From positions 1 through 45,176 of IMG/VR virus record IMGVR_UViG_3300029826_000004: 45,176 bases of DNA; one strand, written 5' to 3'. The position numbers and the translations under genes were made by a program. The notes below the pieces were generated by a model, which was not told the DNA's origin, made no database searches, and was given only the letters and a program-made list of their open reading frames with translations. Positions 15,050 through 44,360 of this stretch are shown here, one piece after another (the first letter of the stretch is position 1; every line of letters begins with the position of its first letter). The stretch comes from a virus.

Positions 15050-15077
15050 GCTCCGTTTCACGACGGAGCTTTTTTTT
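15050..15077 (+). terminator. Strong rho-independent terminator
   Basis: Perfect 7-bp stem GCTCCGT / ACGGAGC with a 6-nt loop followed by eight T bases. It ends the lysis/tail unit. Confidence 0.9.
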
Positions 15078-27525: not shown

Positions 27526-28155
27526 ATGAACGACGTTATTGAAATAAAATCACATCGAGTCATGCATTCGGACCTAATGTTCTCTGATTTTCAGGACTTA
27601 ATGCGAAACGATATTGCTGACATCATGTATTCGGATCCTCCTTGGGGGGAGGGCAATCTTAAATACTGGCAAACAATCAACAACCGTCAGACGGGAGCAG
27701 ATAAAAACCCGGTAAACTATTCGAAATTTCTTTGGCGGATTTTCGATATCGCAAAGACACATGTGAAGCCGGAAGGTATGGTATTTATTGAATACGGTAT
27801 TGCATGGCATAACAATGTAAAAATGACGGCCGCCAAACACGGTTTTCATAATCTCGGGACGATTCGTTTGAATTATCGCTCAGGAGTCAAATTTCTTCCG
27901 CTTGATCTGCATTTATTTAGTCAGACTCCTGTTCTAATAAAGGACAATTACATTGACTCGGTTCGGGATACCCACGGTTTTGAAACCTTAAAGCAGGCAA
28001 TCACTCCTTTTGTATCCCCGGGAATGAAGATTCTCGATCCGTGTTGCGGGATGGGTTATACAGCTCAATTCGCTGTTGATAATGGCCTAACGTTCTTCGG
28101 AAACGAACTTAACCGTTCGAGACTCAATAAAACAATTAAACGGCTATCTAAATGA
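27526..28155 (+). CDS. DNA methyltransferase (DPPW, beta-type order)
   Basis: 209 residues. The catalytic motif IV DPPW (Asp37-Trp40) comes first and the SAM-binding motif I DPCCGMGYT (near 171) near the C-terminus, the order of beta-class amino methyltransferases that make N6-adenine or N4-cytosine. No large target-recognition domain is visible, so the protein is small and may need a partner for specificity. It follows a second methyltransferase and overlaps the PAPS-reductase-like gene by four bases. It is probably active against host restriction or as an epigenetic mark. Confidence 0.8.
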   Translation: MNDVIEIKSHRVMHSDLMFSDFQDLMRNDIADIMYSDPPWGEGNLKYWQTINNRQTGADKNPVNYSKFLWRIFDIAKTHVKPEGMVFIEYGIAWHNNVKMTAAKHGFHNLGTIRLNYRSGVKFLPLDLHLFSQTPVLIKDNYIDSVRDTHGFETLKQAITPFVSPGMKILDPCCGMGYTAQFAVDNGLTFFGNELNRSRLNKTIKRLSK

Positions 28156-30009: not shown

Positions 30010-30573
30010 ATGCCACAAAATACTACTGAAATAATACTCAAAAGGAGGGAAATAATCGCGGGGTTGTACCTGAAAGGAGTCCCTCAATACGTGATCGCTG
30101 AGGAAGTGCAAAGTCGCATGGATATTAGCTGTTCACGACAACAGGTAACCGCCGACATTCATGTTCTTATTGAAGAATGGCGGGAGTCAGCCAAACGTGA
30201 TATTGAAACCGCAAAAATGCAGGAATTGGCCAAAATAGACTCTCTCGAGCGTGAATATTGGGAGGCATGGGAGAAGTCTAAAACCGATTATAAACAGCGG
30301 TATGTCAAGCGAAAAGGGGTAAACATGACCGATGATGAGCGTGAGAGATTCATTGCGGATGAGGAAGAGCGAGGCCAAAAGGAAATGATCATTTTTGGAG
30401 ATCCGCGATTCCTTCAAGGGGTGCAATGGTGTATAAATAAGAGATGTGAGATTTTCGGAGTGAATGCTCCTATTGAAATCACCTCAACAATAAAGGGAGG
30501 TTTCCCGGATTATACAGATGACGAGCTCAGGGATTCAGTAACAACGTTTTTGGAACAAAAAAGAAAGAAATGA
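30010..30573 (+). CDS. terS: Terminase small subunit
   Basis: 187 residues. An N-terminal helix-turn-helix region (ILKRREIIAGLYLKGVPQ, then VIAEEVQSRMDI) is followed by a helical oligomerisation part (KIDSLEREYWEAWEKSK) and GDPRFLQGVQWCINKRCEIFG, a motif I associate with small terminases. Immediately followed by the large subunit with a four-base overlap. It recognises the packaging site on phage DNA. Assignment relies on motif and on the neighbour. Confidence 0.8.
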   Translation: MPQNTTEIILKRREIIAGLYLKGVPQYVIAEEVQSRMDISCSRQQVTADIHVLIEEWRESAKRDIETAKMQELAKIDSLEREYWEAWEKSKTDYKQRYVKRKGVNMTDDERERFIADEEERGQKEMIIFGDPRFLQGVQWCINKRCEIFGVNAPIEITSTIKGGFPDYTDDELRDSVTTFLEQKRKK

Positions 30574-32054
30574 AGGCACCAATAGAGGACATGCGAAAGG
30601 CTCAATTTGAGTTATTGGTCCGGGAGGCCCGGGCCGGTAATTTCCTTGCGTATTGTCTTTTTATGGATGCTCCTTTTTTCCTTAAGCGTAAGATCCTGTT
30701 TAAAATCATAGAAGCGTTTCAATCTGTTCATGATGCCTTTAAACGAGGTGAATCGATATCTGTTGCATGTTCGTTACCTCCCCGGGCCGGAAAGTCTTAT
30801 ATCACATCGTTATTTGTAACATTCATGCTGGGGCACTTCCCGAATGAATCAGTTATGAGAAATGCATGTACCGGAACGCTTTATAATAAGTTTTCATACG
30901 ATGCCCGTGAGATTGTCAAAAAAGAACAATACCGGATGGTATTCCCGGACGTCCGGATGTCTCGAAAACAGAACTTAGGGGGGTGGTCGCTCGAATCTGC
31001 AAAACAGGTTAGCTATTTTGGTGCGGGCGTTAGTGGAACAATTATCGGATTCGGAGCGTCAATGCTTTCAATCACTGATGACCTGTTCAAAGATTTCGAG
31101 GCCGCAATGTCAGCAACTATAAATGATACCACGTGGCGTTGGAAGGAGGGAGCACATGACTCCCGGACTGAGAAAAACTGTTGTAAAATAGACATTGGGA
31201 CCCGGTGGTCTATGAATGACGTGATTGGCCGGATGGAAGCGAACGGGGAATATGATATCATTGTACGTATCCCGGCACTTATTGAAGATGAGGACTCAGG
31301 CGAAATGGTTAGCTTTTGTGAGGATGTTCATTCAACTGATTATTATCTGAAGCTGCAGGCCACGATCGATCAAATGATCTTTATGGCTGAATATATGCAG
31401 GATCCAATAGAGGTTGCAGGATTGCTCTATCCGAAATCAGAACTCAACTTTTTCACGATGGCAGAGCTGGCCGGGAAAAATCCAGACGGGAAAGTCGGTG
31501 CTGTTGATGTTGCTGACGAGGGAACTGATTACCTGTCGAATCCCATTGGATACATATTCGGGGATAAGGTATTTATAACCGATTGGGTTTATAATCAGTC
31601 ACCTGTTGAAGTTAACGAAGGAGAGGTTGCAGGCAAGATTATTGAACACCAGATCCAGAATGAGCTAATTGAGAGTAATAATGGTGGCCGTCTGTTTTCG
31701 ATCATGGTGGATCGAATCCTGAAACAAGATAAGCAGGATAACAAAACGAAACATCAGGCAAATATTGAAGCGAGGCCGACGGTTTCAAATAAAATGACCC
31801 GGATGATCATGAGGGCGGGTATTATTAAGAAACACTTTTATTTCCGCTCTGACGTGCCTTTAAATAGCGAATACGCAAAGGCAATGCATGACCTCACTAC
31901 TTTTTTAAGGACCGGCGGGAATGCTCATGATGACGCGCCTGACGGTATAACTATTTTGGCTGAATACCTTGAATATCTTGGAGTTTTGTCTATGTATATA
32001 GAGGATGAATCCCAGCGGTCAGCAGATGTGAAACGAGAGTTCGGATTCTATTAA
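30570..32054 (+). CDS. terL: Terminase large subunit
   Basis: 494 residues, complete. ATPase: Walker A PPRAGKS (Pro70-Ser76, Lys75), Walker B MLSITDD (Asp170/Asp171). Nuclease: first acidic residue in GAVDVADEGTDY (Asp313) and the last in HDDAPDG (Asp454, Asp455, Asp458). It pumps DNA into the prohead and cuts the concatemer. Normally the portal follows directly; here about 8 kb of unrelated genes intervene, starting with promoter copy 1 at 32077. Confidence 0.95.
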   Translation: MKAPIEDMRKAQFELLVREARAGNFLAYCLFMDAPFFLKRKILFKIIEAFQSVHDAFKRGESISVACSLPPRAGKSYITSLFVTFMLGHFPNESVMRNACTGTLYNKFSYDAREIVKKEQYRMVFPDVRMSRKQNLGGWSLESAKQVSYFGAGVSGTIIGFGASMLSITDDLFKDFEAAMSATINDTTWRWKEGAHDSRTEKNCCKIDIGTRWSMNDVIGRMEANGEYDIIVRIPALIEDEDSGEMVSFCEDVHSTDYYLKLQATIDQMIFMAEYMQDPIEVAGLLYPKSELNFFTMAELAGKNPDGKVGAVDVADEGTDYLSNPIGYIFGDKVFITDWVYNQSPVEVNEGEVAGKIIEHQIQNELIESNNGGRLFSIMVDRILKQDKQDNKTKHQANIEARPTVSNKMTRMIMRAGIIKKHFYFRSDVPLNSEYAKAMHDLTTFLRTGGNAHDDAPDGITILAEYLEYLGVLSMYIEDESQRSADVKREFGFY

Positions 32055-32076: not shown

Positions 32077-32107
32077 TTGCATATATAAATTTATTGCACT
32101 AGCTTTA
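32077..32107 (+). promoter_or_regulatory. Promoter family, copy 1
   Basis: TTG, exactly 20 bases, then TAGCTTTA. It is followed within five bases by the conserved ATGTTAAACGTAATAC leader. It heads the first accessory cassette after the terminase. Confidence 0.75.
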
Positions 32108-32135
32108 TATCATGTTAAACGTAATACATGACGCG

Positions 32136-32594
32136 ATGAATCCAAAAACAATCACAAAAGAGAAGGCGATGACGCCGGGACATATCCGGAAGGATGTTTC
32201 TAAACTGAGACAGATGAAAAAATACTATGTCCGGATCGGTCACGAAAAAAGCATTAATGCCGTTGATAAGGCACTCCACTACTACAATGAAATGAATAAG
32301 ACTCATCAGGATATTATGGCCAATAGGCCTATCCGAGTTGATTTCTATGCTGACTCATATCAATACCGGGAACCGTTGTTTTTCACAGTTGACGGACTTT
32401 TCCAGTACACAATATTGCTTTCAAACATTCGTCGAATCATAGGTGAAGACGTTCAAAAGTCACCGTGTTCAGGAATGCACGAAACGTTTTGGGCCACACT
32501 CTCGTTTTTCCATACTTCGACAATGACGTATGACGAAAAATTTGAGGCCCGAATTAAGGTAAACACTTCCGAACTCAAAGGAGGTGCTTTTTAA
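32136..32594 (+). CDS. Hypothetical protein, first accessory gene
   Basis: 152 residues from the ATG at 32136; an in-frame ATG at 32112 belongs to the conserved leader and is probably at or near the transcription start. Helical N-terminus, then a beta-rich middle (PIRVDFYADSYQYREPLFFTVDGLFQYT) and GMHETFWATLSFFHTST. No membrane segment. It is the only gene between promoter copy 1 and terminator 32613, so it may be an independent cassette. Family unknown. Confidence 0.5.
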   Translation: MNPKTITKEKAMTPGHIRKDVSKLRQMKKYYVRIGHEKSINAVDKALHYYNEMNKTHQDIMANRPIRVDFYADSYQYREPLFFTVDGLFQYTILLSNIRRIIGEDVQKSPCSGMHETFWATLSFFHTSTMTYDEKFEARIKVNTSELKGGAF

Positions 32595-32612
32595 TCGCTG
32601 TCGTTTAACATG

Positions 32613-32637
32613 AAGGGCCTCACTCGGGGCCCTTTTT
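32613..32637 (+). terminator. Rho-independent terminator
   Basis: Perfect 7-bp stem AAGGGCC / GGCCCTT with an 8-nt loop and a short T-run. It isolates the first accessory gene. Confidence 0.75.
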
Positions 32638-32670
32638 AAACGGAAATACATACCTAACAATATTGACATC

Positions 32671-33006
32671 ATGAAAAAAATAATTGAATTAAGCGAGAAT
32701 AAATACGCCGTGTTGGAGGTGTACCGTCGATTCATATCATCCGCCGTTGAAGCCATATCTAAGGATCGGCCGGATAAAAATGAAAAAGATTGGGAGGCTT
32801 TTGCGAAAATGGTGACGCTGCATGATAATCCTTCCTTATATTCAGTGGTAACGAATCCCATTCGTATTATCGCGCATTCATACACAGCTGAATCGATAAC
32901 GCTATCAGCTAACGATTTGGCAAAGATACTATATGAAAGGAGTTTATTGACTAAAGAAGTGAGCAATGAACCAATGACTCTATATGAGTATTACTACGAT
33001 GAATAA
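32671..33006 (+). CDS. Hypothetical protein
   Basis: 111 residues, mostly helical, starting MKKIIELSENKYAVLEVYRRF. The middle part has a VVTNPIRIIAHSYTAESITL strand and the end is acidic with an YEYYYDE tail. It lies between two terminators, yet no copy of the promoter family is seen in front of it, so it may rely on readthrough. Family unknown. Confidence 0.5.
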   Translation: MKKIIELSENKYAVLEVYRRFISSAVEAISKDRPDKNEKDWEAFAKMVTLHDNPSLYSVVTNPIRIIAHSYTAESITLSANDLAKILYERSLLTKEVSNEPMTLYEYYYDE

Positions 33007-33010
33007 AGAG

Positions 33011-33033
33011 GTCCCTCCCGGGACTTTTTTTTT
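33011..33033 (+). terminator. Rho-independent terminator
   Basis: GTCCC / GGGAC with a 4-nt TCCC loop, followed by nine T bases; A-rich upstream bases can extend the stem. Directly upstream of promoter copy 2. Confidence 0.85.
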
Positions 33034-33057
33034 ATTCAAAAATATAAAGTTAATCGC

Positions 33058-33088
33058 TTGCTTTTATAAAACTATTCATTTAACTTTA
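33058..33088 (+). promoter_or_regulatory. Promoter family, copy 2
   Basis: TTG, 20 bases, TAACTTTA, then the leader ATGTTAAACGTAATAC at 33094-33109. It follows a terminator, so it starts a new unit. Confidence 0.8.
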
Positions 33089-33117
33089 TATCAATGTTAA
33101 ACGTAATACATAAGACA

Positions 33118-33777
33118 ATGAACTCAACAGGCAATTTTTTAGTAAACACGGACCATATCAATAGGTCAATCGAGAACATCAAGAAATTTAAACCTGAGGA
33201 CGTTGAAATGCTTCAGGAGGTCTATGAGATTTGCCTATTTGGAAATGTTGATCCGCGAATCATCGCAGCGATGGAAGCAAAACTACAAGAACTCGGAAGC
33301 GATAAGTTTATCCACGGGCCGGCTGAAGACTCAACCACTGCCGAAAAGGTCATGAGAATTATTTCCAGCAAACGGACTGATGACGTCGAGAGAAAATATG
33401 AGGTATTCAAATTTGATCAGGTCTTTGAAACCGAAGAGGAGTTATTAGCCAGTGGGCTTATGGAACGTATTTGGGAGGGATTTCAAGGAATGCACACTCA
33501 GATCGCCGTTTGGAAAAGGTTTAAATTTATCCGGGCTTTCACCGTTAAACGTGACCCAAAGAATAATTTTGGACGTGACTTTGATCTCTATCGTTTTTAC
33601 GAGACTGATGAAGGTTTGAAGCTAGTCAAAAAGATCGAAATACACGCCTGTATCGATAATTCTCCAATGAGAGAAGCATGGATTTATCCTGACTCTATGA
33701 TTTTCACTGAACACTATTATCAAAAATCAGCTCAATCACGCCGTATTCTGGCAAGTGCCGGGGTTGTGGTGTGCTAA
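33118..33777 (+). CDS. Hypothetical protein
   Basis: 219 residues from the ATG at 33118 (the in-frame ATG at 33094 is part of the conserved promoter leader). Helical N-terminal half with several coiled segments, then WEGFQGMHTQIAVWKRFKFIRAF and a beta C-terminal part. It resembles the neighbour at 32136 only in the GMH-aromatic pattern, which is too short for homology. Unknown function; first gene in the unit 33118-35183. Confidence 0.5.
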   Translation: MNSTGNFLVNTDHINRSIENIKKFKPEDVEMLQEVYEICLFGNVDPRIIAAMEAKLQELGSDKFIHGPAEDSTTAEKVMRIISSKRTDDVERKYEVFKFDQVFETEEELLASGLMERIWEGFQGMHTQIAVWKRFKFIRAFTVKRDPKNNFGRDFDLYRFYETDEGLKLVKKIEIHACIDNSPMREAWIYPDSMIFTEHYYQKSAQSRRILASAGVVVC

Positions 33778-33787
33778 TAACAATCAT

Positions 33788-34138
33788 ATGAATAAAGAGG
33801 ATATGTATGCGGAGATTGCCAATTTAGCAGGGCATATCTCCGCTCTCATACAAGAATTGAAAGACAAGAAGGAGGAATATGCAAAGCTTTTCGCTCCTAT
33901 CAAACCCGGTGACCGGGTACGGTATAAACAAGGATGGCAAGGCTCAACATCGAATGGTATCGTTGAGGAGGTCAGCGTAAAAGAAAAGGATGTTTTTAAT
34001 TACTTGGTTATTCTATATAATCAGGATTGGAAAAAGTCAAAGAAAACGCGCCGTATCTGGATCGACCCACAGAGGAGTATTTTCTGGAATGAAACCATTG
34101 AAAAAATTAGCGATGAAACTTCGACTAACATTGATTAA
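33788..34138 (+). CDS. Hypothetical protein with SH3-like segment
   Basis: 116 residues from the ATG at 33788. A short coiled-coil start (EIANLAGHISALIQELKDKKEEYAKL) leads to a beta barrel-like section: PGDRVRYKQGWQGSTSNGIVEEVSV, typical for small SH3/KOW-type folds. Its 3' end is overlapped by the next gene by 26 bases. No enzymatic motif. Function unknown. Confidence 0.5.
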   Translation: MNKEDMYAEIANLAGHISALIQELKDKKEEYAKLFAPIKPGDRVRYKQGWQGSTSNGIVEEVSVKEKDVFNYLVILYNQDWKKSKKTRRIWIDPQRSIFWNETIEKISDETSTNID

Positions 34139-34415
34139 GGAATACGAGATCTTATTGCAATTTAAGGATGACGTAACGGGGCAAAGAGTGAAAGTGATCC
34201 TCTTGTGTTATCCTCAGTCTTGCAGGGTTGAAGCAGTGCCCGAATCGAATAAGAAGGTATTTTTTCTCGAGGGCACTCTGACCGGGAGCAATATCCAAGA
34301 TTTAGGATTCGGTGAAGTTTATGCTCTTAAAATCGCGATGAATCAGGAGCAATTCACGACTGCAATAGAATCGAAATACTTTGATTACGAAATACTAAAC
34401 GAACATGGACATTAG
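34113..34415 (+). CDS. Hypothetical protein
   Basis: 100 residues from the ATG at 34113; an ATG at 34089 (8 residues longer) is also possible. Beta-rich, MKLRLTLIKEYEILLQFKDD and VILLCYPQSCRVEAVPES. It overlaps the following gene by 11 bases. No domain was recognised. The start choice favours the smaller overlap. Confidence 0.45.
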   Translation: MKLRLTLIKEYEILLQFKDDVTGQRVKVILLCYPQSCRVEAVPESNKKVFFLEGTLTGSNIQDLGFGEVYALKIAMNQEQFTTAIESKYFDYEILNEHGH

Positions 34416-34917
34416 AATTAAAAACTATCTCGGGACCGGATTATTAGTAAAGGATTTAATCACGTTTCACGAAAAGGAATTGAAAGGGATACACATTCTC
34501 CCTAAAAATGACATTCATCTGATTGTGTCAGATAAGCAAGGAGTCGAATACACCGCTCCAATTGACGAGTTTGTGCCAGTCATGAAGCCGTTAACTGCAA
34601 TGCTTGATCCTGTGATGGAAAATGACATTGAAAACACGCTACTTTTCCATATGTTTTTACACGCAACGGGAGAAATAAGGGCCATACCGGAAGGAACGGA
34701 ATTTTCGAATTTATACGGGAGCAATTTTGTCGGTATATCTGTTCAAAATCACTCTTACGGGTTTCATTATCTTTTTTTGTATTATGTAGGAATCGGTTTT
34801 TCTCTCAGTAATTACGGAAAGCCTATGCATATGGGGTATCCTGACAAGATATTTGAACTCGCTTATAAGTATCACATAGACCTTTTCGGCTGGCTTGACG
34901 AATTAAAAAAACAATAA
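34405..34917 (+). CDS. Hypothetical protein
   Basis: 170 residues. An N-terminal beta domain (MDIRIKNYLGTGLLVKDL, then KNDIHLIVSDKQGVEYTA) and an aromatic-rich C-terminal half (GFHYLFLYYVGIGFSLSNYG) with conserved small motif YPDKIFELAYKYHIDLF. The pattern recalls widespread but unnamed phage proteins. No signal peptide. It ends two bases before the next gene. Confidence 0.5.
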   Translation: MDIRIKNYLGTGLLVKDLITFHEKELKGIHILPKNDIHLIVSDKQGVEYTAPIDEFVPVMKPLTAMLDPVMENDIENTLLFHMFLHATGEIRAIPEGTEFSNLYGSNFVGISVQNHSYGFHYLFLYYVGIGFSLSNYGKPMHMGYPDKIFELAYKYHIDLFGWLDELKKQ

Positions 34918-34919
34918 AA

Positions 34920-35183
34920 ATGAGTCGGCCTGAGTTTCCAAATTTCAGTCCTTTGACGCCGGAAATAATTCAAAGGATTCGAGCCGAACAGCAGTCGTAT
35001 GACCAAGACCCCGACAGATACGAAGAGGCTAGGCGATTGGCACAAGAAGAATGCGATCGTGCTTATGAGGCCGCTATTGAAGATGACTATATGAGGGCCA
35101 GACAAGAATATTACGAGAGAACAGTTAAACGTTCAGATGAGGACCCCGACGCTGTTGACGAAAATTTTGACCTCCCATTTTAA
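34920..35183 (+). CDS. Acidic hypothetical protein
   Basis: 87 residues, strongly charged, with long Glu/Arg helices (RRLAQEECDRAYEAAIEDDY, in about residues 38-57) and ending NFDLPF. Acidic C-terminal DLPF tail resembles that of single-strand-binding proteins in some phages, but nothing else of SSB is present. Last gene before promoter copy 3. Confidence 0.5.
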   Translation: MSRPEFPNFSPLTPEIIQRIRAEQQSYDQDPDRYEEARRLAQEECDRAYEAAIEDDYMRARQEYYERTVKRSDEDPDAVDENFDLPF

Positions 35184-35200
35184 AATATAAAGATATTCGC

Positions 35201-35231
35201 TTGTGTTTATAAAACTATTGGACTATCTTTA
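35201..35231 (+). promoter_or_regulatory. Promoter family, copy 3
   Basis: TTG, 20 bases, TATCTTTA, then ATGTTAAACCTAATAC at 35236-35251. Here the leader ATG opens a nine-codon frame that ends in TGA overlapping the next ATG, so the leader is not part of the gene. Confidence 0.8.
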
Positions 35232-35258
35232 TAAAATGTTAAACCTAATACGAGTAAA

Positions 35259-35843
35259 ATGAGAACATTAAAATTAACCCAAGAACAGGCGATTGAATCC
35301 TTTATTCGAATGCATGAGGGCGCAACGATGGAAGAATCTGGAACCCTTAAAATTATCACCTACATTAGCCGCCGGAATATGCCATGTATGGCCATTTTCC
35401 ACGGGAAATCTGCAAAGATGGATGTGAACTATGCCTATCGCACCACGACGGATCGCGATGAAGCCATTGAACGCTATAAGCAGGCAGATAAGAAACGGAC
35501 CGACTACAAAGAAAGGATGAAGGCCGAAAGACGTGAATTTAAACACTCATTACAGAAAGGTAGTATTCTCGTTTCGTCATGGGGTTATGAACAGACAAAC
35601 GTTAATTATTACGAAGTGACACATGTCATCTCTGATCGGACTGTTGAGATCCGGGAAATCCACAAAAGTATTGATCAGAAAGGGCCGATGTCAGGTCATG
35701 CAGTTCCTTGCCCCGGTGAATTTAAGGATGACTTTGAACCTAAGCGTTGTCTCGTTTCATACGGGAACAGCGTAAAAGTGAACGACTATCGTTCGGCCCA
35801 TGTTTGGGATGGAACTCCAAATTACGTTTCATGGTATGCTTAA
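35259..35843 (+). CDS. Conserved hypothetical protein
   Basis: 194 residues. N-terminal helix, a beta middle part, a Lys/Arg-rich stretch (KADKKRTDYKERMKAERREF in family style, about 76-95) and a C-terminal module starting GSILVSSWGYEQTNVNYYEV, a pattern common to small phage proteins of unknown function. No catalytic residues recognised. Twelve bases separate it from the next gene. Confidence 0.5.
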   Translation: MRTLKLTQEQAIESFIRMHEGATMEESGTLKIITYISRRNMPCMAIFHGKSAKMDVNYAYRTTTDRDEAIERYKQADKKRTDYKERMKAERREFKHSLQKGSILVSSWGYEQTNVNYYEVTHVISDRTVEIREIHKSIDQKGPMSGHAVPCPGEFKDDFEPKRCLVSYGNSVKVNDYRSAHVWDGTPNYVSWYA

Positions 35844-35854
35844 TATTTGAAGAC

Positions 35855-36073
35855 ATGGAAGACGAATTTAACATTAAAGACATTCAGGACATCCGAATTA
35901 TTATCGTTGCCAATGGGAAACGGTATGCACTTACACCCAAAAAAGAACTGGATCCAGATGTATGCAGGGACTTCAGAATAACCATTGGAACAGCCGCTTT
36001 ATTATACCATAGGGTTGTACTTCCCTCACTGGATGACCTTAAAAAACAAATCGAAAACGATACAGAAAAATGA
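35855..36073 (+). CDS. Hypothetical small protein
   Basis: 72 residues from the ATG at 35855 (an ATG at 35831 lies within the upstream gene). Mixed alpha/beta; IRIIIVANGKRYALTPKKEL. Overlaps the ATPase-like gene by four bases (ATGA), so the two are probably co-translated. Function unknown; may be a partner of the ATPase-like protein. Confidence 0.5.
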   Translation: MEDEFNIKDIQDIRIIIVANGKRYALTPKKELDPDVCRDFRITIGTAALLYHRVVLPSLDDLKKQIENDTEK

Positions 36074-37350
36074 GCTATCTAAAAATCGGTAATAAGGGAA
36101 AGGTTGCAATAGAGGCCTTTTCTCTCATAGGTGCCTCAACCAAACGGAACGATATAACCAAAATAGGAGAGTTCGGTTCTGGTAATAAATATGCATTTGC
36201 ATACCTCCTGAGGAATGGATATAGTCTTCAGGTCTTCTCAGGCATGGACCGGCTGTTTTTCTCAACCAAGGAAAAGGAGTTCCGGGATGAAAAATTTGAC
36301 GTTATCACGATTAACGGTCAGGAGACTTCAATAACAACAACGCTCGGGCCAAAGTGGACCTTATGGCAGGCGATCCGTGAGCTGTATTCAAATGCAATGG
36401 ATGAAGGGCTCACGTTCTTTGAAAAGGTGGATTCAGTGATCCATATTGACGCTGACGAAACAGCAATTTTCATTGGAATTAATGACGATCTCGAGGATTT
36501 GATACTCAACATGGACGAGTACATCCTAATCGGAAAAGAACCTCTGTTTTCGTGCGATTATGGGGCTATCTATCCAAAAGTTGGAAGCAAAGCCAGAATT
36601 TACCGCCGGGGAATCAAAGTTTTTGAAACGAACGACACTAGTCTATTTGACTATGATCTCTACCAAGTTGAAATCAATGAAAGTCGTGTTGTTCAATACT
36701 CTTGGGAGGTCCCGGAAACGATTTGGAACATACTCTATTCATGCGATCGTAAAGACGTCATCCGAAAAGTCCTCAACGATATAAACATCAAAACTCACAT
36801 TGAGCGAAAAATAAATGATTCATTTATTTCGCCACGAAGCGATAAAATGTCATCTGCATGGTTTGAGGTGTTGGAAAGCCGCCAAGTATTCACTGAGGAC
36901 CTATCCGGCTGGTTGAGTGATGAAGAGAGGGTAAAAACAGACTTTCTGCCTTCACGTTTATATTCGGCCCTAATTGCAAGGCTCGGGGACCATATTAAGC
37001 CAAAGTCTATGAAAATATCCGATTCCGGACTTCCTTATGAAGAGGTCACAATGTCGGATACACGTGCGAAACGCTTATCTGATGTTATCGACTTCATACA
37101 TGACAAGAGCTTTGAACTCGACTATAAGATTAAGGTGGTGGATTTCAAGAATAAAAAAGTGTTGGGATCTATTGACAAGGATAACGGGCTGATATTGCTG
37201 GATATTATCACTCTTGACAAGGGATTTGATGAGACTCTTAACACAATCATTGAGGAATACATCCATTTAAAATATGGCGTTATTGACGAAAGTCGCGGAT
37301 TCCAAACTGCAGTTATAACCGAGTTCGTAAAATACATGAGGGACCATTGA
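36070..37350 (+). CDS. GHKL-like ATP-binding protein with permuted motifs
   Basis: 426 residues. The N-terminus has IGEFGSGNKYAFAYLLRNG (Gly33-Lys40), reminiscent of the G2 box GxFGxGxK, and then RELYSNAMDEG (Glu104-Asn108-Asp111), resembling the N box ExxxNAxDE. In normal GHKL ATPases the N box precedes the G boxes. Near the C-terminus TIIEEYIHLKYG resembles a degenerate HExxH zinc motif with Glu in place of the first His. The combination suggests an ATP-binding regulator with an inactive peptidase-like end. Ends with a terminator at 37371. The role in the phage is unknown. Confidence 0.6.
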   Translation: MSYLKIGNKGKVAIEAFSLIGASTKRNDITKIGEFGSGNKYAFAYLLRNGYSLQVFSGMDRLFFSTKEKEFRDEKFDVITINGQETSITTTLGPKWTLWQAIRELYSNAMDEGLTFFEKVDSVIHIDADETAIFIGINDDLEDLILNMDEYILIGKEPLFSCDYGAIYPKVGSKARIYRRGIKVFETNDTSLFDYDLYQVEINESRVVQYSWEVPETIWNILYSCDRKDVIRKVLNDINIKTHIERKINDSFISPRSDKMSSAWFEVLESRQVFTEDLSGWLSDEERVKTDFLPSRLYSALIARLGDHIKPKSMKISDSGLPYEEVTMSDTRAKRLSDVIDFIHDKSFELDYKIKVVDFKNKKVLGSIDKDNGLILLDIITLDKGFDETLNTIIEEYIHLKYGVIDESRGFQTAVITEFVKYMRDH

Positions 37351-37370
37351 CCCCTCATTCGCTATATTTC

Positions 37371-37399
37371 ACAGGGGCTTCGCGGTCCCTGTTTTTTTT
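37371..37399 (+). terminator. Rho-independent terminator
   Basis: 8-bp stem ACAGGGGC / GTCCCTGT (one G-U) with loop TTCGCG and eight T bases. It precedes promoter copy 4. Confidence 0.9.
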
Positions 37400-37420
37400 C
37401 TCAAATATAAACATAATCGC

Positions 37421-37451
37421 TTGTTTTTATAATCTTATTGGATTAACTTTA
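37421..37451 (+). promoter_or_regulatory. Promoter family, copy 4
   Basis: TTG, 20 bases, TAACTTTA, followed by ATGTTAAACGAATAAAA. The leader ATG frame stops after four codons, showing that the conserved leader is an RNA/DNA element rather than coding sequence. Confidence 0.8.
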
Positions 37452-37480
37452 TATCATGTTAAACGAATAAAATTATAGCG

Positions 37481-37768
37481 ATGGAAACAAGAATCGTTCA
37501 TCACACCACGGAACTAAAAGAAAAGTGCTCTAATTGCAATCGACCTTTTATCATGAATTGGTACGATAAGGATGAAAAGAGTGGATGTTCTGAGACAGAA
37601 TATAAAGGGCCGAAAGGTCTGGTATGCTTCGAGTGCAAAACAGCTCTTAATAACGGGCTCCCTCCTCTATCCCTTTGGGATCATAATGAGATCCTCCGCC
37701 GAGGAATAACTAAAGAGCAATACTATTCAGAACACGGATATAACATACCTCACAGTCATGACAACTAA
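37481..37768 (+). CDS. Zinc-ribbon type protein
   Basis: 95 residues. CSNC (near residue 17) and CFEC (near 50) form two CxxC knuckles around an insert of about 30 residues. Remaining sequence is helical, ending in His-rich HGYNIPHSHDN. Overlaps the next gene by 11 bases. Zinc binding is likely; role unknown. Confidence 0.55.
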   Translation: METRIVHHTTELKEKCSNCNRPFIMNWYDKDEKSGCSETEYKGPKGLVCFECKTALNNGLPPLSLWDHNEILRRGITKEQYYSEHGYNIPHSHDN

Positions 37769-38876
37769 TGTAGTACACTTCAGCGTAACGGGCGAAGCAA
37801 TGACGAGCCTTTTCAGGGACTTTTGGGTTGAGGGCCGACACCACTTTGCAATAACCGGATTACTCGAGGGACTCCACGGAATGACGGAAGAAATAGCCAT
37901 CGCGATTGTTACCGGTCAAATGAAACTTACGGGGGTTGATGAGTTGGGACTTGAGGAAGACAACGAAAGCACACATTCCGGGATTCCTCTATCGTTAGAT
38001 TATGCATGGACGAAGGCCGTAAAAGATTACCTACAATATTTCGCAGATGTTTCAATGCTACAACGGAGGCTGGTATTTCTGACACGTCAGGCCTCTTCAG
38101 CCGGTTCTAATTACAGACGAAACTCAGATTATTCTGAATTTAGTCAGCGAACAGACTATAAGAGCTACCAACGCAAGAAAGAACTCTTGGCTGAATGTGC
38201 AGATGCTATTGGATTCATTGGGAAACTGGTTGGCAAAAGTTTTAAAGACGTCCCGATCGATACAGCCCCTATTTATCCCTCTGGAATTAGTGAAGAATAC
38301 GGGAATACGTATAATCCAATTGAGCAAGGCGCAATTCTTGACGATCAGGAATATCCAAACGATACAAGTCCATTTACGGTTGAATTGCCGAGCTCTGATA
38401 TGGTCCAAAAGTTTATTGAAGACTCTATAAGGCTAGACAAGGAGTCTGAAAAAGGAATCGAACCGGTTAACATTGAAGACGGTTATGATGCTGGATGGCT
38501 GGCACCGGATGGGACATATTACGGATTGAACGGGGAAATAGCAAATATGCTGCATAATCGAATAGCTGATTCGCTGGTTGAGGCCGGTATTATTCCAAAT
38601 ACTCACGACGAAGGAGAAAATCCTGATAACTGGCTTTTAAAACATGGGTGGATCAGACAACACGGAAATTGGATACTTTACGATGGGTATATAATTGCAC
38701 AACTCGGTAAAAAAGAGATCCCAATTTCTGAAGAGCAGAAAGAAGCATTGAGAAAATTTGCTTATAAATGTCATAAGGGGATCTTATCGCTGGGATACAA
38801 ACGGATTAACGTGACGGGAACTATGCTTATGATGATCGATCCACTGCAATTTAGAAATAAATTTTTCTCCCTATGA
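37758..38876 (+). CDS. Hypothetical multi-domain protein
   Basis: 372 residues. The N-terminal third is helical (FHFSVTGEAMTSLF-type start, VHFSVTGEAMTSLF), the middle a low-complexity, Ser/Tyr-rich linker. The C-terminal module begins DAGWLAPDGTYYGLNGEIAN and has LLKHGWIRQHGNWILY and ISEEQKEALRKFAYK, resembling the AWLSPDG domain seen in many phage accessory proteins. No enzyme motif. Its TGA is shared with the ATG of the small gene at 38873. Confidence 0.5.
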   Translation: MTTNVVHFSVTGEAMTSLFRDFWVEGRHHFAITGLLEGLHGMTEEIAIAIVTGQMKLTGVDELGLEEDNESTHSGIPLSLDYAWTKAVKDYLQYFADVSMLQRRLVFLTRQASSAGSNYRRNSDYSEFSQRTDYKSYQRKKELLAECADAIGFIGKLVGKSFKDVPIDTAPIYPSGISEEYGNTYNPIEQGAILDDQEYPNDTSPFTVELPSSDMVQKFIEDSIRLDKESEKGIEPVNIEDGYDAGWLAPDGTYYGLNGEIANMLHNRIADSLVEAGIIPNTHDEGENPDNWLLKHGWIRQHGNWILYDGYIIAQLGKKEIPISEEQKEALRKFAYKCHKGILSLGYKRINVTGTMLMMIDPLQFRNKFFSL

Positions 38877-39028
38877 AAAACAAACATGGCAATGGGATTG
38901 GTTTAAGATTTTGGGTATCTATGAGGCGGAAGGATGATTGCCTGTTTTCAAGACGGAACGGATACACCGGGAAACTTTTTCTCGGGTATTCCGTTTGCGT
39001 CCGACTGTTTGGTAAAAATATATTGTAA
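38873..39028 (+). CDS. Small basic protein
   Basis: 51 residues; begins in the stop codon of the preceding gene (ATGA). It is Arg/Lys/Phe-rich (LRFWVSMRRKDDCLFSRRNG) with two Cys, suggesting a small basic protein, perhaps nucleic-acid binding. The coupling overlap and end six bases before promoter copy 5 support that it is real, but no homologue is recognised. Confidence 0.45.
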   Translation: MKNKHGNGIGLRFWVSMRRKDDCLFSRRNGYTGKLFLGYSVCVRLFGKNIL

Positions 39029-39033
39029 AACGC

Positions 39034-39064
39034 TTGACAATATAAATCATAACCATTAACTTTA
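39034..39064 (+). promoter_or_regulatory. Promoter family, copy 5
   Basis: TTG, 20 bases, TAACTTTA. The leader is divergent (no ATG; AATTTAATACC). It is the most diverged copy but keeps the exact spacing. Confidence 0.75.
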
Positions 39065-39090
39065 TAGAAGTAAAATTTAATACCTCAACC

Positions 39091-39285
39091 ATGATTAACA
39101 AAGACGAAATTTACGAAGGTGTTCGAATCAGATTTAACTACGAACTTGGTCAATATGAAGGAACCGTGTCATTTGTGAACGGTGACGAAATCGAAGTGAA
39201 TAGCGACAGTGAAATTTGGGCTTACGGACTAAATTTAGGAAATGTCGTTTCAATCACGAATGAGGATGTGCTCGAAACATTATAA
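39091..39285 (+). CDS. Small SH3-like hypothetical protein
   Basis: 64 residues. EGVRIRFNYELGQYEGTVSFVNGDEIEVNSD has the alternation of short strands and turns typical of small SH3/KOW barrels. It is followed by a signal-peptide protease gene in the same cassette. Function unknown. Confidence 0.5.
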   Translation: MINKDEIYEGVRIRFNYELGQYEGTVSFVNGDEIEVNSDSEIWAYGLNLGNVVSITNEDVLETL

Positions 39286-39306
39286 TTAACTCTTAAACCT
39301 ACAACG

Positions 39307-39750
39307 ATGAAAAGATTAACGATTTTGGTCCTCATGCTCCTCTCTATTAATGTTCGGGCGGTGACCGTTAAAGATTACACGAAATATGACCTCACAGAGA
39401 TCATGGTTTTCGCAAGCAGTTATTTAAACCTCCCGGATACAATTACAGTGATTGTGTCAACCAGCCACGGAAACATAGCCGGATTTCCATCCGTGACCCA
39501 AAAGGTTACCGAGCATATCTATACGATATTGATCGATGAAAATATGAGCCGTATCGAGGCCGAAAAAACGATTGTTCATGAACTGGCACACGTCAAACAA
39601 TTTGTTACGGGCGATCTCGTTATTTTGGATGCGATGCATTTTATCTATAAAGGGAAAAAGCATGAAATCAATCCGAAATATCACTATGATGAACCACAGG
39701 AGAGGGACGCCAGAAATGTCGCACATACAATTTACTTCAAATACAGATGA
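39307..39750 (+). CDS. Exported HExxH metallopeptidase-like protein
   Basis: 147 residues. The N-terminus (MKRLTILVLMLLSINVRA) is a signal peptide with a plausible cleavage after RA near residue 18. HELAH at His91-His95 is the zincin motif, and a downstream DEPQERDAR (Glu129 or Glu132) could be the third ligand. It should act in the periplasm of a Gram-negative host. Substrate unknown: it might trim a cell-wall or outer-membrane component, or be a moron. It stands next to the portal gene, unusual for a protease of this type. Confidence 0.65.
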   Translation: MKRLTILVLMLLSINVRAVTVKDYTKYDLTEIMVFASSYLNLPDTITVIVSTSHGNIAGFPSVTQKVTEHIYTILIDENMSRIEAEKTIVHELAHVKQFVTGDLVILDAMHFIYKGKKHEINPKYHYDEPQERDARNVAHTIYFKYR

Positions 39751-39751
39751 C

Positions 39752-40123
39752 ATGACCCAAAAAATCGTTAACACATTGAATATTGGTGATATGCTGTACC
39801 ACGCAAAGCAAGACAAGGTTATCCCTTATCCTGTCACCAAAATAAAGAAATCAGACAAGGGTATTGAGGTGTCTGTCAATCCCGCAAACCGGAAAGATTA
39901 CTCTTTTATGTATGATGATTGCCAAAAAACGGCGGCCATCTCAACGACTGTAAGGTTTGGTAGAGATTCAGTTTTATATGTCCGGGAGGAAGACGCGATC
40001 GCTGATATGTGGAAACAACGGAGATTGAGATATGCTGAATTGAGGCAGGCCGCTGAAGATGCTCTGATTGCCGCGAATACTTTTTACGTTGATTTTATTT
40101 TACCGGGGATTCCCGGCGGGTAG
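39752..40123 (+). CDS. Hypothetical protein
   Basis: 123 residues from the ATG at 39752; earlier in-frame ATGs would overlap the peptidase gene. Beta-rich N-terminus (GDMLYHAKQDKVIPYPVTKIK, in about residues 12-32) and a helical Ala-rich C-terminus (RYAELRQAAEDALIAANTF). No recognised family. It is last in the accessory block before the portal terminator. Confidence 0.5.
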   Translation: MTQKIVNTLNIGDMLYHAKQDKVIPYPVTKIKKSDKGIEVSVNPANRKDYSFMYDDCQKTAAISTTVRFGRDSVLYVREEDAIADMWKQRRLRYAELRQAAEDALIAANTFYVDFILPGIPGG

Positions 40124-40152
40124 GTTTAAGTTTTCATTTTTTGCTTAGTAGG

Positions 40153-40180
40153 GGGATCGGTTGCCGGTCCCTCTATTTTA
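40153..40180 (+). terminator. Rho-independent terminator
   Basis: GGGATCGG / CCGGTCCC (one wobble) with loop TTG, followed by TCTATTTTA. Ends the accessory block just before the portal gene. Confidence 0.75.
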
Positions 40181-40187
40181 TTGAAAA
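40173..40187 (+). repeat. 15-bp repeat copy 2 (see 2084)
   Basis: CTATTTTATTGAAAA is repeated exactly from 2084-2098, again bridging a terminator T-tract and a structural gene (portal ATG 40195). Confidence 0.5.
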
Positions 40188-40194
40188 CAATGCT

Positions 40195-41652
40195 ATGCCA
40201 TCATTCAAAGATTTATATCAGGCAAAAAAATCTGATTTCACACAGGTAATTGCCATTTTCAAAGATACCCGGGATGACAGAGACCCCGAATCTTACTATA
40301 ATGAATACAAAGGTGACAGAACCAGACGTCCGGGAGCTATTGGTTACAGGAAACCCAAAACAGTTGGTGAAGGATCCGACGCTATTACAATCATCCCGGC
40401 TAAGATAGTTTTTAACTTCCCGAAAAAAATTGTGCAAACTGCAGTCGCTTTTTTGTGTGGTGGTGATATGATATTAACCTTTGCAATCGATGATGATTCA
40501 GCTGATTTATTCAAGGCCATTTTTACGGAAGAAATGAAAATGCAATCGATCATCAAGGAATTTACTCGGGTTGCAATGGTCGAAACAAAGGCGGCTATGA
40601 TATTTTTTCCTCAGGAAAAGATCCCGTACATTATTGAAGGCACAACCATAACATCAAACATGAAACTGAGGGCTAAAGTGCTCGATCATACGTCTGGAAT
40701 CTTTTATCCTCATTTTGATGATTACGGTGATCTGGATGCATTTTTCTGGAAAACTCAATCGACGGATGAAAGCGGCAATCCCATATCAATTATTAGGATT
40801 TATACTGAGGACTATGAAATTATTGCCACTGAAGTAGGTGGGAAATACGAAGTAAAACAGCAGGCTAATCTGTTCGGAAAAATACCGGTTGTTTATGTGG
40901 ACCGTGACCAACCCGAATGGGAGGATGTTGTTGAAATGATGGACCGCTTTGAAATGAGGATCTCGAGGGTTAGCGATACGAATGACTATTTCAGTGAACC
41001 CATGTTAATGCTGATGGGGAAGCCGGTTAAACTCCCGAGTAAGGATACAATGGGGAAAGTGGTACAATTTGACATGCAAACCGGGATAGATGGGAAACCT
41101 GTTACCGGCGATGCAAAATACCTGACATGGGACCAATTCCCCGAATCGATACGGTTAGAACTCGAGACTCTTTGGAATGGCATTTATTCCGGCACCAATA
41201 CCCCGGACCTGTCATTCGATAATGTCAAAGGGCTCGGTGCGAATATCAGCGGATATGCACTGAAAATGATGATGCTGGATGCAATCATAAAGGCAAACGA
41301 AAATAGAGAGGTGTTTGGAAAAGCATATTCTCGTATATTGAAGGTTGTTAGGGCTGGTGTCAGTGGAATCATTTCCCCAAAATTTAAAACAGCTCTTGAT
41401 AAAAACAGTGTATCCGTTAAGTTTTCCAATCCTTTGCCGGATGACGTGAAAGAAGCGGTTGAAGTTATCATGACGGCCACGGGAAACGAACCGATATTAT
41501 CACAGGAGGGAGGCGTTCTTATTTCTCCATTGACGAAAAATAAAGACGAATTCCAGCGCATTCAGTCAGAGGCTACGACCCGGGCAAAGAATGAGCAATC
41601 TGCACAATTTGGATCATTTAATACCGGGGACAATAATCCGCCGGTACAATAA
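40195..41652 (+). CDS. Portal protein (SPP1 gp6-like)
   Basis: 485 residues from the ATG at 40195. It follows the SPP1 gp6-like portal pattern: SYYNEYKGDR, NFPKKIVQTAVAFLCGG, a stretch of strands, then the helical part ending NISGYALKMMMLDAIIKANENRE and the KVVRAGVSGIIS helix. Portals form the dodecameric vertex for DNA packaging. Terminase and portal usually lie together, but here are separated by the accessory block. Position before the head morphogenesis gene agrees. Confidence 0.85.
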   Translation: MPSFKDLYQAKKSDFTQVIAIFKDTRDDRDPESYYNEYKGDRTRRPGAIGYRKPKTVGEGSDAITIIPAKIVFNFPKKIVQTAVAFLCGGDMILTFAIDDDSADLFKAIFTEEMKMQSIIKEFTRVAMVETKAAMIFFPQEKIPYIIEGTTITSNMKLRAKVLDHTSGIFYPHFDDYGDLDAFFWKTQSTDESGNPISIIRIYTEDYEIIATEVGGKYEVKQQANLFGKIPVVYVDRDQPEWEDVVEMMDRFEMRISRVSDTNDYFSEPMLMLMGKPVKLPSKDTMGKVVQFDMQTGIDGKPVTGDAKYLTWDQFPESIRLELETLWNGIYSGTNTPDLSFDNVKGLGANISGYALKMMMLDAIIKANENREVFGKAYSRILKVVRAGVSGIISPKFKTALDKNSVSVKFSNPLPDDVKEAVEVIMTATGNEPILSQEGGVLISPLTKNKDEFQRIQSEATTRAKNEQSAQFGSFNTGDNNPPVQ

Positions 41653-41661
41653 AACAATAAC

Positions 41662-42018
41662 ATGAAAAAATTAGCACAAAGAACATTAGAGAAATTCCTG
41701 AATGCTTGGCAAAAAGAGGATTATTTTGCCATGTTCAAACACTCACAGATTACTTGGTCCCACTCCCGATCTAAACATGCAATAGAGGCCCTGTTTGGAG
41801 GCAGGAAATTAGAATCATATGAAATTATTGCAGTGGCCCGGGGTGGTGATGCTCTTTTAAAATTCTCATGCCACTTAAAACTGGCAGGACGCGAACCGGT
41901 GAATTTTATTGCAAACGTCATTAGGGAAACTGGACCATATCAGCCTAATGAAACGGCCGGGAGGTGTGGCGTTAATCCTCTGACATTATTAAAACCGGTT
42001 GAAAGTGAAGTACACTGA
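41662..42018 (+). CDS. NTF2-like hypothetical protein
   Basis: 118 residues. LEKFLNAWQKEDYFAMFKHSQITW and FGGRKLESYEIIAVARGGDALLKFSC recall the helix-plus-curved-sheet pattern of NTF2/SnoaL-like domains. It lies between portal and head morphogenesis genes, with its end overlapping the latter by about 20 bases. A virion-assembly role is inferred from location. No catalytic dyad could be assigned. Confidence 0.45.
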   Translation: MKKLAQRTLEKFLNAWQKEDYFAMFKHSQITWSHSRSKHAIEALFGGRKLESYEIIAVARGGDALLKFSCHLKLAGREPVNFIANVIRETGPYQPNETAGRCGVNPLTLLKPVESEVH

Positions 42019-43063
42019 TAAATTAGCGTTCGCAAATAGACAGCTAGTTCAGAAAATACTGGCTCAAAATCCTTATTTATCATCGCTATTTAATCAGCTG
42101 ATCAATTCCGTCGCTCCCGAATTACGGAAATATAGAAAATATACCGGTCGAAGCGTATGGTATCGAAACTCTTCGATCGAAAAATCTATTGAGCGTAAGC
42201 TCATACAGTTTCAGGCGGCTTTGCAGCAATACATCCAATCGCAGCAATCTGAAGCATGGGCCCTTTCCAATAGCGCAAATGACAGCGTTTTCAGATCGTA
42301 CATTCGCGGGATGTCAGTTAGTGATACCGTTCGCGTTGGGCTTTTCGATCGGAATATGCAGGCCTTAACGTCGTTTCAAAACCGGGTTGATAGTGGCATG
42401 AATCTATCACGGAGGGTTTGGAATATAACCGAGGGGACCAAATCACAGCTAGAGTTTTATCTTGAAAGTGGTATTTCTCAGGGCCGGTCAGCGGCCAATA
42501 TTTCGCAGGACGTAAGACAGATTTTGAATAATCCGGATAAACGATTCAGGAGAATTAAAAATCCTGAGACGGGAAAGCTCGTACTCTCGCAGCCAATGGC
42601 AAACTATCATCCCGGGAGAGGTGAATATCGTTCCGCCTTCAAAAACGCTCTCAGATTAACTTCAACAGAGACGAATTTAGCCTATCGGATGGCCGATCAT
42701 GAGCGTTGGGGAGGGATTGACTTTGTAATGGGGATCGATGTCAATTTATCCGGGAGCCATCCCAAATTTGATATTTGTGACAGCATGGCCGGCCGCTATC
42801 CAAAGAATTTTGTTTTCGGAGGTTGGCACCCGGCTTGCATCTGTTATGCAACCCCTGTATTATTACCTCCAGATGCATTCGTGAAATACCTTGAAAACGA
42901 CCATATCGATATGAGGTATGCAACCCGATCTCTTCCATCCTCTGCCGTTAAGTATGTTCATGACCATAAAAAAGAGATAGCCGGCGGCGTCTCAACTCCT
43001 TACTGGTATCGCGATAACTTCACAACCAAAGGAACTCCCAAAAAATCAGTTTATTATAAGTGA
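41999..43063 (+). CDS. Head morphogenesis protein (Mu gpF-like)
   Basis: 354 residues from TTG at 41999; a GTG at 42005 would give two residues fewer and is equally plausible. The diagnostic region is C-terminal: ICDSMAGRYPKNFVFGGWHPACICYATPVLL, the Cys/His-rich motif (CD...GWHPxCxC) of the Mu gpF/SPP1 gp7 minor head protein family. The N-terminal part is helical with a YLESGISQGRSAANISQDV segment common to the family. It is ejected or bound at the portal in related phages. Its stop codon lies in the 43060 hairpin. Confidence 0.85.
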   Translation: MKVKYTDKLAFANRQLVQKILAQNPYLSSLFNQLINSVAPELRKYRKYTGRSVWYRNSSIEKSIERKLIQFQAALQQYIQSQQSEAWALSNSANDSVFRSYIRGMSVSDTVRVGLFDRNMQALTSFQNRVDSGMNLSRRVWNITEGTKSQLEFYLESGISQGRSAANISQDVRQILNNPDKRFRRIKNPETGKLVLSQPMANYHPGRGEYRSAFKNALRLTSTETNLAYRMADHERWGGIDFVMGIDVNLSGSHPKFDICDSMAGRYPKNFVFGGWHPACICYATPVLLPPDAFVKYLENDHIDMRYATRSLPSSAVKYVHDHKKEIAGGVSTPYWYRDNFTTKGTPKKSVYYK

Positions 43064-43110
43064 ATTATATAATCCAACACGTTTGTTGTATATAATTTCA
43101 CGCCTTTTTT
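43060..43110 (+). terminator. Terminator with long A/T-rich stem
   Basis: An imperfect inverted repeat (GTGAATTATATA... / ...TATATAATTTCAC, with inner CAACA/TGTTG) is followed by TTTTTT. It overlaps the stop codon of the head morphogenesis gene and ends the head unit. Confidence 0.7.
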
Positions 43111-43151
43111 GTAAATATTTTAACATATAACGTTATTTTATTCGTTTTATA

Positions 43152-43182
43152 TTGCATATATAAAACTATTGGTTTAACTTTA
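43152..43182 (+). promoter_or_regulatory. Promoter family, copy 6
   Basis: TTG, 20 bases, TAACTTTA, then ATGTTAAACGTAATAC at 43187-43202, identical to copies 1 and 2. It follows a terminator. Confidence 0.8.
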
Positions 43183-43210
43183 TACCATGTTAAACGTAAT
43201 ACTTAAGGCG

Positions 43211-43465
43211 ATGAATGATACAACTAGAGCAATCCTGACCCAATTATTAGAAAATTATCGATGGGTAACAATCAGGGCAATTCACCAGATCGGCGCGTGG
43301 AGTGAATCAAGAAACTACACGATCGAGCGTGTCGAAGAGTATGAATCAGTTCGAAAATTCGAGGAGCGAAAAAATGAATCCTTTGCGAAACTTTACGGCA
43401 AGGGAAATCAAAAGGCGTCGCTCTTTTTTGAGGCGTCAGCAACGATTGAAAAAATAAATGCTTAA
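43211..43465 (+). CDS. Hypothetical small helical protein
   Basis: 84 residues from the ATG at 43211 (in-frame leader ATG at 43187). Helical, with RAILTQLLENYRWVTIRAI, a charged centre and a Gly-Lys linker. No recognised family. First gene in the last cassette. Confidence 0.5.
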   Translation: MNDTTRAILTQLLENYRWVTIRAIHQIGAWSESRNYTIERVEEYESVRKFEERKNESFAKLYGKGNQKASLFFEASATIEKINA

Positions 43466-43484
43466 CCCAATAACAATTTAAAAC

Positions 43485-44360
43485 ATGGAAACACAACCGA
43501 ATTTTAAAACGGATTTTACTCTCTCAAAGTATTGGGAGCAAATCAACCGGGCACATTCAAATATTTCATTCAGTCCAGAACGAAGGGCCGACATGTACGT
43601 CCGGGACTATTCCGAGGAACTCGATGAAGATTTAGCCCAGCTGGGGGAAAATCAGGGTAATTACAAGGAGAAGTATGAACGCTATTTTTCAGCGTGGATG
43701 AGTGCGAAAGGAAACTGTATCTCATCCGCAATCACCGGCCCCGCTAATTTCCCGGTCCGGAAAGCTGAAAAAGCGAATAATTCCGAACGCAATCGATATG
43801 ATGAGTTCAGACATTGGCGTGAAAAGTACTTCAAAGCCGTTAATCGCGTTCGCACTCCCAGCCCTGAGGAGGATTTGGAAAACCTTTATAAAGAGCTGGA
43901 CGGATATCTCATCTTAAATGAGAATATCAAAGAATGGAATAAGTCTATCCGAAAATATAAAAACGGTAAGATGACCATTGAGGAAATGAGGGACCAACTT
44001 AAAAAAGACGGTATAACAGACCGATGGATGACTGCCATTCTTCGAAACGTTACATACAGCTATTGGCATGGATTAGGCTCCTTCGCTACTAAGATTCGGA
44101 AACTAAGAGAACGGGCTGAAGCACTCAAATCACGTATTCAGCGAAAAGAAGAGTGGACCGACATCGAGTTTGAAGGTGGGCGGATTACAGTTGAGGATGA
44201 CCGGGTAAAAATTTACCACGACGAAAAGCCAAGCCCGGAAATTATCGGGGCACTGAAACGCCACGGATTCAGGTGGTCCCCTTATTGGGGGGCATGGTCC
44301 AGAAAACACACCGGTCAGGCCGTGTATGATGCAAAAATGATTGTAAACTTAAAATCATAA
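43485..44360 (+). CDS. Hypothetical protein with GFRWSPYWGAW motif
   Basis: 291 residues. The N-terminal two-thirds is charged and helical, including several coiled segments. The C-terminus reads VEDDRVKIYHDEKP, then RHGFRWSPYWGAWSRKHT, a small module present in mobile-element and phage proteins (for example near DUF3560-type or large polyvalent proteins), where it ends with GFRWSP. It may be a nucleic-acid or protein binding piece. Whole-protein function unknown. Confidence 0.55.
   Translation: METQPNFKTDFTLSKYWEQINRAHSNISFSPERRADMYVRDYSEELDEDLAQLGENQGNYKEKYERYFSAWMSAKGNCISSAITGPANFPVRKAEKANNSERNRYDEFRHWREKYFKAVNRVRTPSPEEDLENLYKELDGYLILNENIKEWNKSIRKYKNGKMTIEEMRDQLKKDGITDRWMTAILRNVTYSYWHGLGSFATKIRKLRERAEALKSRIQRKEEWTDIEFEGGRITVEDDRVKIYHDEKPSPEIIGALKRHGFRWSPYWGAWSRKHTGQAVYDAKMIVNLKS

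Follow-up and report, generated by a model that had tools for sequence, protein, structure and literature searches.

Six paralogous, putative sigma-A-type promoters precede separate moron-like accessory cassettes in a phage with a likely Bacteroidales host

Moron loci of temperate phages consist of extra genes set between conserved structural genes, with a promoter and sometimes a terminator of their own, and are transcribed autonomously, commonly in lysogeny. The promoter early stem-loop (PeSL) elements of T4-like phages, reportedly treated by Arbiol (2010) and Comeau (2014), are multiple dispersed host-type promoters, some of them fused to a terminator stem-loop, which flank orphan genes in variable regions. 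The PeSL cassettes of T4-like phages are described in PMC4503421. The element described here, repeated six times in one phage record, may work in a way that resembles both PeSLs and moron promoters. As with PeSLs, its multiple copies are scattered among the orphan genes of a variable region, where two inserts are absent or much shorter in relatives; as with morons, extra genes stand between genes that are adjacent in relatives. The phage differs from those carrying PeSLs in not being T4-like, a stem-loop accompanies two to three of the six copies, and no shuffling between phages was found. We have not filed the element as a PeSL member because such shuffling was not demonstrated and half of the copies lack a stem-loop. 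It differs from moron loci in that several unrelated cassettes share a single promoter family, and in that no integrase was seen among the proteins scanned (a subset of ORFs).

The window analysed is the whole stretch of 45,176 nucleotides, part of a record of 53,901 bases. The contig ends (1-161 and record positions 53698-53901) share tail-fibre-like repeats of 85-98% identity, which may mean that the record is circular or that it was broken within a repeat. A pattern count in the window recovered TTG-N20-TAnCTTTA at every one of the six sites named in the original prediction (32077, 33058, 35201, 37421, 39034 and 43152), all on the + strand and all with a spacer of exactly 20 bases. The window holds seven matches in total against 0.14 expected, with a maximum of 1 in 100 dinucleotide shuffles; the seventh, at 18878-18908 on the - strand, is a chance match within a tRNA gene. 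That gene (18837-18923; Rfam 47 bits) was missed by ARAGORN. The check that had been proposed, a position-weight scan across all 53,901 bases of the record, scored the six copies at 46-75 bits and the rest of the record at about 19 or less, and found no further full copy. The highest of these other scores belong to the opposite strands of three copies, those of 33058 and 37421 reaching about 19 and 15 bits. Nor does the motif occur at similar density in host-type sequence: three Bacteroidales genomes (~13.3 Mb, both strands) contained 94 matches versus 81 for a reversed-pattern control, at most a slight enrichment, which amounts to about 0.4 per 54 kb against the six seen here.

The best other forward site in the scan is a partial one beyond the window, at 45694 (2.6 bits; TTG-N19-TAACTTTA). 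A second partial site with the same -7 box, at 46402 (N21), stands 5′ of a likely Y RNA gene. Record positions 46402-48164 (L008:1402-3164) include a gene for a Ro60/TROVE-type RNA-binding protein (Pfam TROVE E 4e-14; phrog_850). Before this gene lies a non-coding stretch of ~260 nt that has a promoter-like site of its own, a strong terminator and two tandem GGTGGCGG..GAGTTACTTCG..AACATCTC repeats. This putative Y RNA stretch gave no Rfam match; the region is likely to be a phage Ro60-Y RNA module.

In self-comparison, the six copies align pairwise over 51-95 nt at 69-86% identity (E 7e-15 to 8e-4) and form one paralogous family with a unit of ~60-95 nt. Mean pairwise identity is 1.0 for TTG, 0.94 for TATAAA, 0.92 for the -7 box and 0.78 for the first nine leader bases, against 0.37-0.40 for the variable spacer ends and 0.26-0.27, the random level, for the flanks outside the block. 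Conserved islands split by variable gaps argue for selection on a promoter rather than for recent copying alone. They also bear on the suggestion that these are short repeats maintained as recombination seams by homologous exchange of cassettes, with little or no transcriptional role. Such seams would be consistent with where the copies lie, on the borders of cassettes within two insertion hotspots, and with the Erf-like and exonuclease VIII-like genes that the phage encodes, but conservation falls in promoter-spaced islands and is not continuous, orientation is the same in all copies and the distance to the ATG is nearly constant. We regard this suggestion as highly improbable.

The finer description of the shared block needed amendment. 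The inner TATAAA, put forward as common to all copies, is present in five, with TATAAT in 37421. CTATTG, likewise said to be shared, has exact copies in 35201 and 43152 alone; 33058 has CTATTC, 32077 and 37421 have TTATTG, and the hexamer is absent from 39034. A leader common to five copies was recovered with small departures, as 33058 has one extra A before it and that of 37421 is one base short (ATGTTAAACGAATA). The leader of 39034 has diverged and lacks an ATG (AGTAAAATTTAATAC).

The host is likely to belong to the Bacteroidales, since relatives of the terminase large subunit (TerL), at 42-50% identity, sit in genomes of that order (Bacteroides ihuae, Phocaeicola plebeius, a Tannerellaceae MAG and a Dysgonomonas MAG). 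In the three Bacteroidales genomes, which are among those just named, the canonical pattern TTG-N20-TAnCTTTG is enriched (187 versus 75 for the reversed control), as is TTG-N19-TAnCTTTG (225 versus 52). Phage relatives prefer TTG-N19-TAnnTTTG (69 versus 18 for the reversed control) and show no enrichment of the TTTA form (194 versus 180). A spacing of 20 is thus normal, and the odd feature of the six copies is the A at -5. Compared with the Bacteroidota sigma-A promoter (-33 TTTG/-7 TAnnTTTG), the expected match was found in all six copies for TTG at -33, for TAnCTTT at -12 to -5 and for the spacing, which lies within the enriched range of 19-20; the spacer is A/T-rich and the predicted start falls on A. 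The copies depart from it in the last -7 base, which is A in 6/6 where the consensus has G, and in having a conserved TATAAA within the spacer and a common leader. The sites fit Bacteroidota -33/-7 promoters, as had been proposed, and the reading that we prefer is that of sigma-A-type promoters with A for G at -5, although this base, together with the scarcely enriched TTTA form, makes promoter strength or even activity uncertain.

Invariant spacing, inner conservation and a shared leader had been taken to suggest a phage-specific regulon. We do not follow this argument, because the invariant spacing and common leader are explained by shared descent, and N19 and N20 are both normal in Bacteroidales. 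A regulon would have a phage sigma factor, activator or repressor read the TATAAA/CTATTG block together with the -5 A, and perhaps the leader too, switching the cassettes on jointly. The positive evidence that makes it possible consists of the conserved inner block, a partial symmetry and the A at -5: the identity of TATAAA exceeds what a plain -33/-7 promoter needs, the unusual -5 A is common to all copies, 33058 and 37421 are quasi-palindromes with a strong reverse-strand match, and copy 35201 has matched changes in both arms (TATAAAGATA/TATCTTTATA). The best symmetry centre, however, is common to copies 2-4 only and lies elsewhere in copy 6, and copies 1 and 5 show no symmetry above background; a consistent operator palindrome was rejected on the differing centres. 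No phage sigma factor, dedicated activator or matching regulator was recognised among the proteins scanned (a subset of ORFs), and common descent accounts for the shared features. Such joint control appears unlikely. It is decidedly unlikely, in our judgement, that the sites form a phage-specific promoter class of Bacteroidota viruses (TTG-N20-TAnCTTTA, inner TATAAA, AUG-initial leader) at which host polymerase needs a phage factor, with a mobile promoter(-terminator) unit recruiting genes into the packaging/head region.

Returning to the sites as sigma-A-type promoters, we predicted starts by placing the -7 box at -12 to -5, the span that it occupies in flavobacteria (PMC9723704). Copy 1 (32077-32107, + strand) runs from the -33 TTG to the -7 TAGCTTTA directly after the TerL stop codon, with a predicted start at 32112 and the gene ATG at 32136; its predicted 24-nt 5′ UTR (32112-32135) begins ATGTTAAACGTAATAC and is unstructured. 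The other copies, on the same strand, have predicted starts at 33093 (copy 2, 33058-33088; gene ATG 33118), 35236 (copy 3, 35201-35231; gene ATG 35259), 37456 (copy 4, 37421-37451; gene ATG 37481), 39069 (copy 5, 39034-39064, the most diverged and without a leader ATG; gene ATG 39091) and 43187 (copy 6, 43152-43182; gene ATG 43211). The predicted start is an A in 6/6 copies, each followed by a gene ATG, which gives predicted 5′ UTRs of 24, 25, 23, 25, 22 and 24 nt for copies 1-6. Leaders are less structured than shuffles in five of the six, and RNA structure in the leader was rejected as a candidate on the grounds that the leaders are predicted to be unstructured. Unstructured leaders fit translation initiation in Bacteroidetes (PMC6847099).

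The view that the leader is not conserved as protein was upheld, since genes start at the downstream ATG 22-25 nt on and the leader frame is not kept; a leader peptide as conserved product was rejected on frame. The accompanying statement that the leader frame stops at once in copies 3 and 4 applies to 37421 (4 codons, MLNE*) but not to 35201, where the frame extends to 8 codons (MLNLIRVK*) and ends in a TGA that overlaps the following ATG. That overlap could be taken to mean that the ATGTTAAAC leader is translated, either from a 5′-terminal AUG as a leaderless start or as a short upstream peptide tuning the gene, a reading compatible with a promoter. The predicted start is also the A of the leader ATG in four of the five ATG-bearing copies, although in Bacteroidetes AUG triplets are depleted around start codons (PMC6847099). 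Against translation, the distances from leader ATG to gene ATG (24, 24, 23, 25 and 24 nt) do not keep frame and 39034 has no leader ATG, and we consider it quite improbable. If the box spans -12 to -5, the leader would be an unstructured 5′ UTR and not a peptide.

All six copies fall in two lineage-specific inserts. Insert 1, of ~8.1 kb, separates the TerL gene (30570-32054, +) from the portal protein ORF (40141-41652, +), an interval of 66-1,899 bp in relatives having both genes. Insert 2, of ~5.3 kb, follows the head morphogenesis gene (41999-43063, +); the head-to-scaffold gap in relatives is 148-2,814 bp. In L009 (MT835752), a relative with the same gene order, the TerL, portal and head genes lie next to one another, and comparison with syntenic relatives confirmed that the copies lie within accessory cassettes, as had been proposed. 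On the other side of the TerL gene, 28152-29300 belongs to a known class of auxiliary gene: it encodes a phage PAPS-reductase/DUF3440 protein and adjoins ParB-like genes.

The cassette ORFs are all on the + strand, and most match no family of known function. Cassette 1 has ORFs at 32136-32594 (no family match) and 32671-33006, and cassette 2 has several, from 33118-33777 up to 35183. Cassette 3 comprises 35259-35843 (phrog_37844, unknown function) and 36070-37350 (phrog_8203), which has homologues in Pseudomonas and Bordetella phages, one of them annotated as an ATP-binding protein. The 426-aa product of 36070-37350 has ~30% identity to these phage proteins and, by eye, GHKL-ATPase-like motifs (GEFGSGNKYAF, ELYSNAMDEG). 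Cassette 4 (37481-38876) contains 37481-37768 and 37758-38876 (phrog_11532); cassette 5 (39091-39750) contains 39091-39285 and 39307-39750, the latter with a weak IrrE/M78-like metallopeptidase match; and cassette 6 (43211-44360) contains 43211-43465 and 43485-44360, a primase-like phrog_19458. Anti-phage defence genes were rejected on PADLOC matches that were weak only. Cassette proteins compared with one another showed no paralogy, which excludes gene duplication as the origin of the copies and suggests that the promoter spread without genes.

Some of the cassettes end in predicted terminators. An intrinsic-terminator-like hairpin at 32612-32640 (+; AAGGGCC..GGCCCTTTTT; -17.1 kcal/mol, z -3.8) ends the first ORF. 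Terminators are fused to promoter copy 2 (33005-33033, +; -13.4 kcal/mol, z -3.1) and copy 4 (37371-37398, +; -13.7 kcal/mol, z -5.5), and these two copies align with each other, terminator included, in self-comparison. An A+U-rich stem-loop with a T-run lies 5′ of copy 6 (43062-43110, +; -8.1 kcal/mol, z -3.5). The terminator-promoter composite is clearly seen in 33058 and 37421, is likely for 43152 and is absent in 32077, 35201 and 39034, so that a stem-loop stands directly upstream in 3/6 copies only. Elsewhere in the window, a strong terminator-like hairpin at 15052-15077 (TCCGTTTCACGACGGAGCTTTTTTTT) ends a sub-threshold GcvB-like match and is possibly a small RNA or an operon end.

Exact-pattern and position-weight searches of viral contigs and TerL relatives, sets that may omit very near records, gave no true copy of the motif; the best chance matches score about 22 versus 36-59 for real copies. 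Comparison of the element with phage records by blastn returned short chance matches only. No relative searched has the motif, and the same element was not found beside different genes in related phages. Some relatives (L018, L039) have, between TerL and portal, a single promoter-ORF insert whose promoter-like site is of the canonical TTTG form, and L018 also has a terminator; this junction therefore looks like a moron hotspot of the phage group. Promoter repeats of the same kind were not found in relatives. One of them, L057, has a 110-bp intergenic repeat of another kind (L057:4687-4795 and 5882-5992), 5′ of two genes and followed at its first copy by a TTACCTTTATATA promoter-like stretch, which is perhaps another reused regulatory block.

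The six sites are probably paralogous sigma-A-type promoters with a short 5′ UTR, each 5′ of a separate accessory cassette in a moron-like arrangement, at two hotspots of insertion within the late region. The host RNA polymerase would recognise TTG (-33) and TAnCTTTA (-12 to -5), and transcription would start at the A five bases past the -7 box, giving a 22-25-nt unstructured leader, with translation beginning at the downstream ATG. In some cassettes an intrinsic terminator would directly abut the promoter of the following one, and each cassette would be expressed independently of late transcription, as in morons. The promoter, or promoter plus terminator, may have spread without the genes by recombination between short homologous stretches, carried out by the Erf-like annealing protein and exonuclease that the phage encodes, a plausible route by analogy with that proposed for the PeSLs of T4-like phages.

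Expression of the genes in these cassettes should be separate from that of the late genes, which makes them candidates for host takeover, defence and counter-defence; such genes are nearly all unnamed in this phage group. The finding would extend reusable promoter-terminator units from T4-like phages to phages of Bacteroidota, and would supply a promoter and leader set for testing in Bacteroides genetics.
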